From: Planctomycetota bacterium
Lineage (GTDB): Bacteria > Planctomycetota > Planctomycetia > Planctomycetales > Planctomycetaceae
Direction: 5' to 3'
NCBI GenBank assembly: GCA_030836185.1
Contig: JAURQH010000059.1
Location: forward strand, 62,001 to 126,000
Length of the DNA stretch: 64,000 nt
Shown: piece after piece, positions 50,374 through 60,014 of the stretch
How positions within the stretch are numbered: position 1 is the stretch's first letter
How the letters are laid out: each line of letters begins with the position of its first letter
The notes under the pieces: generated by a model
The model's database searches: none
Told to the model about the DNA's origin: nothing
What the model saw: the letters and a program-made list of their open reading frames with translations, nothing else
Program-made: the position numbers and the translations under genes

Positions 50374-51150
50374 ATGATCGACGTAGCTGGATTAACCAAA
50401 ACATTCAGCGATGTCCGACGCGGAGAGGTTGAAGCTCTCAAGAATGTTTCATTCAGTGCTAAAGCGGGAGAAATCTTTGGCCTGCTAGGGCCGAACGGAG
50501 CCGGCAAAACAACCTGCCTGCGATTACTGTCAACAGTGTTACGACCCACCGCAGGGCGAGCCGAAGTTGCCGGATTCGATGTGGTCAAACATCCCGAACA
50601 AGTCCGCGCTCATATTGGTTTCATGTCAGGCAATACGGGCGTTTATGATCGCATGTCGGCTTGGGAGATGGTCGAATATTTTGGGCGGCTTTATGGTGTC
50701 GAAGAGTCTGTGCGAGTCACTCGACAGGAAGAAATTTTCGCCACTCTGCAAATGGACGACTTCCGAGATATTCTTGGATCAAAAATGTCGACCGGAATGA
50801 AACAGAAAGTCTCCATCGCCCGAACACTCATTCACGATCCACCCGTCCTCATTTTTGATGAACCAACCTCCGGTCTTGATGTTCTCGTGGCCCGTAGCGT
50901 GATTGACGCCATCGAGCATTTGCGTGAACAAGGGAAATGCGTGATCTTTTCAACGCATATCATGCGTGAAGTGGAGCGTTTATGCGACGAAGTGGCCGTC
51001 ATCGATCAAGGAGAAATTCTGGCGGCGGGAACGCTCGACGAACTTCGTGAGCAATATCGGCAACCCGATGTCGAAGAACTCTTCTATCAATTGATTGCCG
51101 ACAACCGTGCCAACACCGCGTCTGCAAAAAGTGGGGAGGATTCTCCATGA
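50374..51150 (+). CDS. ABC transporter ATPase (NatA-like)
   Basis: A 258-residue ABC ATPase. Walker [10 protein letters not shown] is at 39-47, the signature-like [14 protein letters not shown] and Walker [12 protein letters not shown] follow, and a D-loop and His-switch segment (FSTHIMRE) are present. It matches NatA-type sodium or drug export ATPases. Its stop overlaps the next start by four bases (ATGA), and the next gene encodes the permease. The ATG at 50374 is chosen over an upstream TTG. Confidence 0.9.
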
Positions 51151-53546
51151 TGCAACGACGCAATGTCGGGCTCATTTTTACCCGCGAAATTCGCGATCAA
51201 TTTCGTGACCGACGAACCCTGTTCATGATGTTAGTTCTGCCAATTTTGCTCTACCCCGGCATGGGAGTGGGCATGTTGCAGATGACAGTTCTATTCAGCA
51301 ATCAGGAACGCGAAGCGGTAATCCTCGGCAACGACAATCTGCCTGAGACTCCTTCACTGATTGAAGAAGAACGGTTTGCAGAACGGTTCTTCACAAAAGA
51401 CCCGGAAGCCGCCAATAGCCTGCGTCTTATCCTCGAAACGCCCCCCCAAAAAGAGGATCAGGAGGAAACTGATCTTGATCAACATGACTTGATTCTCAAA
51501 GCACATCAATTGATCGAACTTGTTCGCAAAAAACACAAAATCGATCAGTGGGAGAAACTGGAAGACGACGTCGAACAGACACCGGAACTGATCCAACTGG
51601 AAAACGAACTCGCGGCGGCATTCGCTACGTTCCCCGCCGAAATTGTCATTTATTTCCCGCCGGAGTTTGACCAATTCATCAACGAATATCTCTCTCAGGA
51701 CCGCCCCGCAGACAACGACACCATCACCGATGACCTGCGACCGGTGGTCGTTTATAGCGGTGCTGATGAAAGTTCACAAATCGCGTATCGGCAACTCGCA
51801 TCAGTGCTCGGGCAATACGAACGTGAGTTGCTGCAGAAACGTGGTGAGAATCTCAACATCCCCGGCCCTTTTTTGCGACCGTTATTTGAAAGTCGCGATT
51901 ATGATGGCGACCGCCATAACGTCGAAGATGCTGCGATGGAGGCCCAGCATTCTGCCAATATCTGGAGTCGTTTTTTTCCCACACTGTTAATCCTGATGAC
52001 ACTCACCGGGGCATTTTATCCCTCGATCGATCTGGGAGCAGGCGAAAAAGAACGCGGCACCATGGAGACGTTGCTTATCAGTCCTGCAGCACGCAGTGAA
52101 ATTGTTCTTGGGAAATTTTTTACGATCTTGCTCTTTAGCATTATGACGGCGATGTTCAACATCATCAGCATGGGACTAACAGCATTTTATATGGTCTCTA
52201 TGGCGGGCGAATCGCAAAGCATGCGAATGATCAATTTAACCCTCCCGCCAACAAGTTCGTTTGTCGCAATGGGTATTATGATGATTCCCCTGGCGGCTAT
52301 GTTTAGTGCCATGTCGCTAGCATTGGCAACCTTTGCCAAAAGCACCAAAGAGGGACAGTATTATCTGACTCCCCTGATGATTGTCGTTATGGGTCTGACG
52401 ATTTTTTGCATGTCTCCCGGCGTCGATCTCACCCCGTTCAACAGTGTCATACCTGTTGTCGGGCTCGGTTTATTATTGAAAAACCTGATCCTCTCGCCCA
52501 TCTCAGATGTCGACATCTATGTTTATGTGCTACCGGTGTTGTTGACCAGTATTGGTTACAGCATGATTGCACTCTGGTGGGCCATCGAACAATTTCATCG
52601 AGAAGAAGTTCTGTTCCGTGAATCGGAACGGCTCGACCTCAAACTGTGGATTCAGCATCTGCTCAGAGATAAAGAACCACTCCCGACAACGGGTGAAGCG
52701 ATTGCTTGTTTCCTGACAATCATGCTTCTGCAGTTTCTGTCATTTGGACTCTTCCAGGGATTATTCAGTGATCCCAACATTTCTGCCGCAGATGCGATTC
52801 TACAAGCTCTTTCCATGCAGCAGATCGTCATCATTGCCTCGCCGGGACTCTTCATGGGTCTCCTGATCACCTCGAACTTTCGCCGTACGTTTCGCTTGCG
52901 AATGGCACGTCCCAAATGGATCGGCTTGGGAATTGTTCTTCCCATTCTGTTACTGCCTTTAGCCATGACGCTGCAATCGTACTTACATTGGTTCTTTCCC
53001 GAATTACCAGATCGCATCAAAGAGACACTCGCCCCGATGAGCGATCCTGACCTCAGCGTGTTCAAACTGCTGGCGGTGTTCGCGTTGCTTCCGGCGATTT
53101 GCGAAGAACTCGCTTTCCGGGGTTTTATTCTCAGCGGATTCAGCCGAAATGGGCGCACAGGAGTAGCCATCGTATTTTCTGCACTGTTGTTCGGCGTGAT
53201 GCACATGATCCCGCAGCAAGTGTTCAATGCCTTCCTGCTAGGACTGGTCTTGGGACTCCTTGCCTTACGCAGTGGGAGTATTATTCCCAGCGTCGCCTTC
53301 CACTTTGTCAATAATGCCATGGGTGTTCTCGCAGAACGAATTCCTCCTGAAGCATTCCAATCAGGGCCAGTCAGTTGGATTGCCACCGTCGATCAGCAGG
53401 GCCTCCACTTCTCAATACTGACTCTGGTCGTTTGTCTCGTGGGAGGAGGAGCATGTATCTGGCATTTGATTCAGTCTCCGAATGACATTTCACCGGTTCT
53501 GGAAGAAGAGATCCCACACGCGCCGCTGGCTGTTGCGGAGGGATAA
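51147..53546 (+). CDS. ABC-2 type permease fused to a CPBP intramembrane protease
   Basis: A 799-residue membrane protein. The N-terminal half is an ABC-2 permease with a large extracytoplasmic loop between the first helix and the rest and the [18 protein letters not shown] segment typical of NatB-like permeases. The C-terminal part has CPBP/Abi protease motifs: EE(x3)R at E653-E654...R658 (EELAFRG), H686 (GVMHMIPQQ) and H719 (FHFVNNAMG). Such fusions occur in planctomycetes. It is coupled to the ATPase gene by a four-base overlap. Cargo and protease substrate are unknown. Confidence 0.87.
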
Positions 53547-57781: not shown

Positions 57782-59185
57782 TCAGTCGTCAGTCAGGCGT
57801 TGTTCAAGAGGGATATCCCGGCCATGTGGATCGGCGTCGGGTGTTTCCAACTCGTCCTCAAGTTGTGACCGAAGTTCGGGGTTCAGGTAATGTTCGACCC
57901 GTGCTGCCGTGGCATGGAGGTGCGTATCGGGAAGCTGGAAATGTTTCGCCATGTAGGCTTCCCAAAGACGGTGAGATCGCACTAGTTTGCGAGCGGTGAT
58001 ACGCCCGATATCCGTTAAATGATAACCACTTGGGTCAGAGACAATCTGACGATCACGGCTCAATTTGATCACTGCCAGCCGCGACATCAGCCATCCCAAC
58101 CCCAGATGTCGACGAACAAGTTCGGTGGCACCGATTTGGCGTTCTTCCAAATGCGATTCTTCGATCCGATAGAGCAGGCCCAAAAGGTCATCTCCGGCAA
58201 TTTTTACCGAAAGTCGTGCTCTTTCAAAAAACTGGCTGACAATTCCGTATCGTGGGCTGAAGAAGACAGCAATCAGGAACAACATGCCACAAGTCCCCGC
58301 CATCATGCCCGCGGTCGAGGCATCTCGCACATTCTCAAACCCCAGACGAGGAAAGACCATTGCGGGAAGTGTAATGGCAAAAAGATGCCCCAAAAATGCA
58401 GACATCGCTGCGACACCTAACGAAATTGCGATTAAGCGAGCATACCGATCTGTCAATAAATGAGCGGTCGCTGCTGGAACAATCAATAAGGCAATGACGA
58501 GAATGTTTCCCACACTCTCGAATGCTGCGACCAGCGTGGCTGCTGTTGCCGCCATTAAGCCGTAATGCATAACGCGGGAATTGATGCCCATGGTTGTGGA
58601 TAGCTCGGGATCGAACGTGCTGATCTTGAGTTCTTTAGCAAACATGACCACCAAGAAGAGATTGATCAGCAGCATAATTCCATTGGTGATCGCGGGAGTT
58701 GGCGGTTCACCATTGACGGAAATGGCGGTCGTTTCGATGGTTCCGTAAAACACACAATCGGGATCAATATGTAACCCGCTAGGAGCCAAGCGAATCAACA
58801 ACAGCCCAAGTGCAAAGAGTGAAGTGAAGACCACTCCCAACGCAGCGCTGGCTTCCACTCGCCCAAGTTTTTGAATCCACTCAGTCAGAACGGCTGAAAA
58901 CACTCCAATAATCATCGCGCCGCCAAACATCACCGCATGGCGTGTCGCGTGATAAGTTTCAGTATCGATCCAGCCGCTCACCCGTAACGCATTGGCAAAT
59001 AAAATGGCACCGATGATTCCCAACAGCGACGTATGACTGAGTGCATCACCCATTAAGCTTTGTCGGCGGAGGACCAGAAATGTTCCCGGAATCGCACACG
59101 CCATCGCGGCGAGAGCAGCCGTTGTCGCCATCCAGGTGTCACGAAAATTCCAATCAGATGCGAGGTCCATAAATTCAGAGAACAT
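57782..59185 (-). CDS. Metal ABC permease fused to a DtxR-like repressor
   Basis: A 467-residue protein. Residues 1 to about 315 form an ABC-3 (zinc/manganese/iron) permease with about eight to nine membrane segments. The C-terminal part (about 332-435) is DtxR/MntR-like: a winged-helix region followed by the dimer/metal domain with H405 and E409 (SHRLWEAYM) and H424, E431, H432 (HLHATAARVEHYL). These positions match DtxR metal ligands H79, E83, H98, E105 and H106; DtxR C102 is replaced by Ala. The closest parallel I know is the chlamydial permease-repressor fusion YtgCR. It overlaps no gene but starts two bases after the TlpA-like gene ends. No ATPase or binding protein gene is adjacent. Confidence 0.85.
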   Translation of the reverse strand: MFSEFMDLASDWNFRDTWMATTAALAAMACAIPGTFLVLRRQSLMGDALSHTSLLGIIGAILFANALRVSGWIDTETYHATRHAVMFGGAMIIGVFSAVLTEWIQKLGRVEASAALGVVFTSLFALGLLLIRLAPSGLHIDPDCVFYGTIETTAISVNGEPPTPAITNGIMLLINLFLVVMFAKELKISTFDPELSTTMGINSRVMHYGLMAATAATLVAAFESVGNILVIALLIVPAATAHLLTDRYARLIAISLGVAAMSAFLGHLFAITLPAMVFPRLGFENVRDASTAGMMAGTCGMLFLIAVFFSPRYGIVSQFFERARLSVKIAGDDLLGLLYRIEESHLEERQIGATELVRRHLGLGWLMSRLAVIKLSRDRQIVSDPSGYHLTDIGRITARKLVRSHRLWEAYMAKHFQLPDTHLHATAARVEHYLNPELRSQLEDELETPDADPHGRDIPLEQRLTDD

Positions 59186-59187
59186 AT

Positions 59188-59796
59188 TCAGACTCCGCTC
59201 TCTTCCACGGGACTGGACACGGTTGCCTTCGATTCTGTCAGAGTCCGAGTCAACGCCTCTTCGAGTGATTCGTCATCGATCATGCTGCGATTCCACCAGA
59301 CTTTACCATCACGCCCGATGACCCATAACCCTGGAAGATAGTCACCTTCAAAGGCAATCAAGGTTTGCACCGCATTCATGCCAAACCCGTTGGGCCAGGT
59401 GATTTTTCGATCATCCAGCCACTCGATAATTTTCTGTTCATCCTGCGGGCCGGCAGCCGTCAGTCCGAAAAAACGGACTCCGTCGGATGCAAACTTCTCG
59501 TGTGCTTCGACCAACTCGGGAGCAGACTCGTAACAGGGCAGACACCAGGTCGCCCAAGCGACCACGACATAAACTTCACCCGCCAATTCGGTCTGATCGG
59601 GGCCTTCTCCCTTGACCCAAACGTCAGCATAAAGTTCGGGGGCTGCTTTTCCAATCGCCAGCCCACCTCCAACTGCGACCGAGTTTTGAGGGGACTTGAA
59701 CCATTGAACGAAGGCGAAACTCAACAGCACGGCTGCAATCAAAATCAGCGTAAACTCTTTGCCGGAGGATTGGATTTTGGGACGAGATTCGTTCAT
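59188..59796 (-). CDS. TlpA/ResA-like thioredoxin-fold membrane-anchored protein
   Basis: A 202-residue protein with an N-terminal membrane anchor (about 15-32) and a thioredoxin fold with active-site C85 and C88 in ATWCLPCYES. It probably reduces or isomerises extracytoplasmic thiols. The ATG at 59796 gives the anchor; a longer in-frame start is less likely. The stop is two bases before the metal-permease fusion start, so the two are co-transcribed. Confidence 0.85.
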   Translation of the reverse strand: MNESRPKIQSSGKEFTLILIAAVLLSFAFVQWFKSPQNSVAVGGGLAIGKAAPELYADVWVKGEGPDQTELAGEVYVVVAWATWCLPCYESAPELVEAHEKFASDGVRFFGLTAAGPQDEQKIIEWLDDRKITWPNGFGMNAVQTLIAFEGDYLPGLWVIGRDGKVWWNRSMIDDESLEEALTRTLTESKATVSSPVEESGV

Positions 59797-60014
59797 GGAG
59801 ACATTCAGTTGGAAAAACGGCAATTCGTCATATCAGTATAAGTCAGAGTCGACTTGGCGACAAACCGGTCGGCTCTACCTATTTTGAGTAGAAACGAAGG
59901 TGTTGTCTTAAGAAAACCGGGAAGAAATCCCGCTTTGCGTCTGGTCAGCTTATCTGATGGCCTTAGAATCGAATGATAACATATTCACAAATACCTTTCG
60001 ATTTTGAGTGTTTC

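Follow-up and report, generated by a model that had tools for sequence, protein, structure and literature searches.

In a 64,000-nucleotide stretch of planctomycete DNA, here called the window, one gene encodes an ABC-3 metal permease that continues into a DtxR-type domain. On a reading to which we assign about half of our confidence, the protein serves as permease D, the second of the pair, in a heterodimeric divalent-metal importer of the TroABCD/PsaBC class, and the tails of the two permeases work as a metal sensor that is built into the transporter and acts on it. The domain's role is probably to sense metal on behalf of the pump and not to switch genes. More tentatively, and with a confidence somewhat short of even, we propose that the DtxR-type domains on both importer halves were once transcription factors and have become an allosteric brake that responds to metal, losing DNA reading while keeping metal sensing and dimerisation, with gene control left to separate repressors that can be exchanged while the fusion stays as it is. 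What the sequence itself shows is the fusion, the predicted fold, ligand conservation, lost DNA-contact residues, the presence of separate repressors, and operator-like sites that match those repressors. So far, a single chlamydial example has led such fusions to be seen as cleaved repressors, but many relatives in Planctomycetota, Verrucomicrobiota and other phyla have a conservation pattern at odds with DNA binding. Should the tails turn out to gate the pump, a repressor domain would have been made into feedback on Mn/Fe import at the level of the protein, and free-living planctomycetes offer a place where this idea is testable.

A sequence-only reading of the region had described one 467-residue frame with a permease followed by a DtxR-like domain, and both the Pfam matches and the AlphaFold2 fold bear this out. 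Pfam places the ABC-3 permease at residues 21-273 (E 6e-42, 144 bits) and Fe_dep_repr_C (PF02742) at residues 391-459 (E 9e-19), but PF01325, the family of the DtxR N-terminal HTH, has no match in the window protein. The nearest solved proteins by sequence are PsaC for the front part and ScaR/SloR/DtxR-type regulators for the back. The AlphaFold2 model, built from 52 sequences (mean pLDDT 92.6), contains a complete two-domain DtxR fold at about residues 325-465, a winged helix together with a metal-binding and dimerisation domain. The winged helix anticipated earlier is thus found in the model, and the tail compares with DtxR, IdeR and MntR at Z 17-18 and an rmsd of mostly 2.1-2.9 over 130-138 residues, while residues 5-318 match PsaC with Z 32 over 268 residues. 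Membrane helices extend up to residue 309 and are followed by the loop and the single continuous helix of the junction (Table 1); the rest of the tail is made of helices 353-361 and 365-377, two wing strands and the dimerisation helices. The junction between permease and tail is predicted to be short, helical and rigid.

Table 1. Features of the fused permease gene and its upstream neighbour in the window.
Feature	Position	Strand	Basis
D-type ABC-3 metal permease fused to DtxR-type domain, 467 aa	57782..59185	-	ORF, Pfam, relatives, model
Permease part, residues about 18-310, ABC-3, PsaC-like	58256..59134	-	Pfam, structure match
Junction: 5-residue loop 310-314, continuous helix 315-343; D333 and R340 conserved	58154..58243	-	Model, column counts
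Winged helix, residues 353-391; fold predicted, recognition-helix residues unconserved	58013..58129	-	Alignment columns, model
Metal-binding and dimerisation domain, residues 391-460; H405, E409, H424, E431, H432, D452, H454; A428	57806..58015	-	Pfam, columns
ResA/TlpA-like thioredoxin-fold gene, ends just before permease start	59188..59823	-	Pfam

The gene had seemed strange for lacking an ATPase and a binding protein. Both are indeed absent beside it, but they are present elsewhere in the same genome, on contig C92, where an operon holds the genome's only ZnuA-type binding protein, an ATPase and a second permease of 484 aa that carries a DtxR-like tail as well. The window gene is the D permease, the partner of this C92 permease, displaced from the operon, and its lone position is thereby explained by the rest of the transporter and the second fused permease residing on the other contig. 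The importer resembles PsaBC/TroABCD in its permease fold and operon parts, and the ATPase and binding protein that belong to it are encoded in the same genome; solved PsaC, however, has no DtxR tail. The sequence-only reading had suggested looking for the fusion across planctomycetes and other PVC bacteria. Within the order, all but one of 120 genomes (119) encode a protein related to the window protein, so that the fusion is not a chance event, and Verrucomicrobiota have relatives too. A lone gene or a pseudogene was rejected, given the conservation of relatives and ligands and the existence of a partner operon.

The usual layout in the order is binding protein, ATPase, permease C with a tail and permease D with a tail. 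All three genomes of the genus instead have the D permease outside the operon and behind a ResA/TlpA-like gene, with a gap of 3 bases in the window's genome and in G071; no such gene was found at the 13 other loci with a displaced D permease. On the D-permease tree the outside-operon state needs at least nine changes, a rough figure because some loci end near contig edges, and the unfused state at least five. The operon occurs in named genomes of Planctomycetota, Verrucomicrobiota, Kiritimatiellae, Spirochaetaceae, Latescibacterota and Gemmatimonadota, which are mostly MAGs with taxon titles taken as given. Sampling the whole phylum gave matches in 32 of 99 genomes. In one genome (L068 5279-6746 / L179 4974-6441) the D permease consists of two overlapping frames with a break around residue 270, which is either genuine or caused by a frameshift error.

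The metal half of the tails is strongly conserved. All five metal positions named earlier (H405, E409, H424, E431 and H432) are present in the window protein, and among 90 non-redundant D tails H405, E409, E431, H432 and D452 occur in 90 of 90 and H424 in 89. In C tails the corresponding positions read H-E-D-D-E-H, each kept in 77-83 of 86 sequences. With ligand positions assigned according to the DtxR/MntR literature (PMC4805248), D333 corresponds to MntR Asp8 and is kept, as are D452 and H454, which are further ligand positions of the family. The primary site (Asp8/Met10, Cys102/Glu99, Glu, His) is nevertheless incomplete in the window protein: D333, E431 and H432 remain, but position 428, on which the sequence-only reading was silent and which aligns with DtxR Cys102 and MntR Glu99, is Ala. 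With Ala there, the window tail may have low metal affinity or use the secondary site. This residue varies across the 90 D tails (E in 49, H in 16, D in 7, M in 7, A in 6). In a tally of 97 operons both tails are intact in 64, one is intact and the other degenerate or absent in 29, and none is intact in 4, hence pairing of C and D tails is not essential everywhere, and a single sensing tail per transporter may be enough.

The deep planctomycete families L199-L203 have a D tail that is only a winged helix without the metal-binding half, whereas their C tail comprises the full DtxR domain, DPHG included. Four of these five (L199, L201-L203) also have a separate DtxR gene next to the operon. Retention of the D winged helix alone in some deep families suggests a structural role for it. 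Single-permease relatives in L205, L206 and L207 have a permease tail made of DtxR plus a FeoA-like part.

Two readings without pump gating or gene control draw on these same tails. The tails could accept metal from the pore exit or store it, which would agree with the near-invariant ligands, and D tails without a metal half imply that C and D tails need not be a matched pair; a whole DtxR fold with dimerisation helices exceeds what an acceptor site needs, and we regard a metal acceptor or buffer as rather unlikely. Alternatively, the tails might stabilise the heterodimer or dock the ATPase, with the metal as a structural ion. The D tails reduced to a winged helix in some deep families would fit such a structural or assembly function, as would the conserved R-x-W-S pattern that C tails have in their own HTH, but some lineages lose the tails yet keep the transporter and all sensor ligands are kept, so that we find this reading improbable.

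The DNA-reading half behaves differently from the metal half. The HTH is the least conserved part of both fused permeases, with column identities of 0.17 and 0.21, while the metal half reaches 0.49/0.55 and the permease 0.47/0.49, whereas 37 stand-alone DtxR proteins show 0.52 in the HTH and 0.71 in the metal half. Because the fused and stand-alone sets are unequal in breadth, pairs were matched by metal-half identity. At a metal-half identity of 0.6-0.7 the HTH identity is 0.22 for D, 0.26 for C and 0.44 for stand-alone proteins, and at 0.7-0.8 it is 0.26, 0.29 and 0.63, values that misalignment of this short and gappy stretch could depress somewhat. The near-invariant recognition-helix residues of stand-alone DtxR are absent from both C and D tails, and PF01325 matches none of 34 D members and none of 26 C members. 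The C-tail winged helix has a conserved pattern of its own, R-x-W-S-x-x-R-L, unlike DtxR (for example in L008 4782-6236), which is possibly a docking surface. Since the fold is kept in C and D tails, it is the surface that has changed rather than the whole domain that has decayed. Fused and stand-alone domains cannot be told apart by the net charge of their HTH. In a tree of DtxR domains, too short to date the fusion, C, D and stand-alone sequences form mostly separate groups. Like stand-alone family members (DtxR, IdeR, ScaR, SloR, MntR), the window tail has the two-domain fold and most metal-ligand positions, but it is fused to a permease, its HTH family goes undetected, its DNA-contact residues are unconserved and it has Ala at the Cys102/Glu99 position. 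The window tail is a DtxR-type domain that falls outside the DNA-binding members on two features, the recognition helix and the full primary site.

Separate repressors are available for gene control. The window's genome encodes a stand-alone DtxR of 222 aa on contig C53, and 82 of the 120 genomes of the order have one scoring above 100 bits. A DtxR or a short MntR adjoins many operons, the short MntR beside the operon being found elsewhere than in the order. Upstream of the binding-protein gene the palindrome TTTTGA-N4-TCAAAA occurs in 15 of 18 genomes with a stand-alone DtxR and in 1 of 6 without (p 0.007), and the MntR-like TAGCA-NN-TGCTA in none of 18 with and 5 of 6 without (p 0.0001); shuffling gives an expectation of about 1% for each, and the p-values overstate the case since the genomes are related and the patterns were picked after some of these sequences had been viewed. 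Grouping loci by neighbouring repressor yields the same contrast (8 of 17 versus 0 of 10, and 0 of 17 versus 6 of 10). Palindrome type tracks the stand-alone repressor, not the fusion, and we infer that the stand-alone repressors bind these palindromes. In the window's genome the palindrome precedes the C92 operon as one of three perfect copies in 5.16 Mb; of the two others, one is close to a pilin-like gene and one separates an ABC-F gene from a short frame downstream of it, sites with no clear metal regulon. Neither palindrome lies within 300 bases of the 16 displaced D genes, the window gene included, at the thresholds used, and the regions ahead of the window gene and its ResA-like neighbour gave no operator within 2 mismatches. 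The whole window has 11 operator matches against 6.4 expected.

These observations bear on the closest known relative. In chlamydial YtgCR (CT069) the tail is released from the permease and represses transcription (PMC5599777, PMC7755916), and the likeness claimed for the window protein holds at the level of architecture: an ABC-3 metal permease and a C-terminal DtxR-type domain with metal ligands in one frame, encoded with a binding protein and an ATPase. The systems differ in that the planctomycete importer has a tail on each of its two permeases, DtxR/MntR repressors are encoded separately, the recognition helix lacks conservation and the window gene has left its operon; of the two, cleavage is known for YtgCR alone. 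A tail that is likewise cut from the permease and represses in its metal-bound form, as the sequence-only reading had inferred, would be compatible with the complete winged-helix fold that is predicted. We do not favour it and hold it to be unlikely, given a DNA-contact helix that is unconserved even across operons sharing the same palindrome, separate repressors matched to that palindrome and the short junction predicted to be rigid. That the window gene has no palindrome ahead of it speaks against release as well. The unconserved helix, the matched repressors and the short junction also count against an uncut tail that binds DNA from the membrane at targets varying by lineage. For full-length YtgC a review considers that repression might come from the tethered protein, and the winged-helix fold is retained in C and D, but the fused tails are without lineage-wide conserved contact residues while stand-alone proteins of the same genomes conserve theirs; we consider such a membrane-tethered regulator very improbable.

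Kept ligands and dimerisation helices, a recognition helix free to vary, a rigid attachment and separate gene control together argue for a sensor that no longer reads DNA. Under the metal-sensor reading, both permeases would carry their C-terminal DtxR-type domains, with D moved out of the operon here, at the cytoplasmic side beside the ATPases. In a replete cytosol the tails would bind Mn2+ or Fe2+, the C tail perhaps pairing with the D tail through the DtxR dimerisation helices, and the metal-loaded tails would hold the transporter in a resting state, a protein-level feedback or trans-inhibition. Stand-alone DtxR/MntR would meanwhile repress the operon, and the winged helix would survive for its structure or for docking and would not read DNA. 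Precedent exists in the substrate-binding regulatory domains of the ABC importers MetNI and ModABC, and it is most likely, by analogy, that cytosolic metal controls the pump as these domains do. The likeness is one of proposed logic only, a cytoplasmic regulatory domain binding imported substrate and blocking transport: in MetNI/ModABC the domain sits on the ATPase, has another fold and its inhibition is shown (PMC10710835), whereas in the window protein it is permease-borne and DtxR-derived, and inhibition is inferred. Against the sensor reading stand the action of YtgCR, a known relative, as a released repressor, as well as A428 and the operons with one or both tails degenerate or missing.

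Permease-DtxR fusions are already known, and orthologous ones in 11 bacterial phyla are credited to Thompson et al. 2012 in the review PMC5599777. In the open-access literature, which our search covered, we found neither the double fusion nor the present conservation pattern, and no permease-fused DtxR described as a transport regulator; the novelty of the double fusion is not certain. Elsewhere in the window, positions 51147-53546 hold a 799-residue frame that by eye seems to combine an ABC-2 type permease with a following CPBP-type membrane protease domain.
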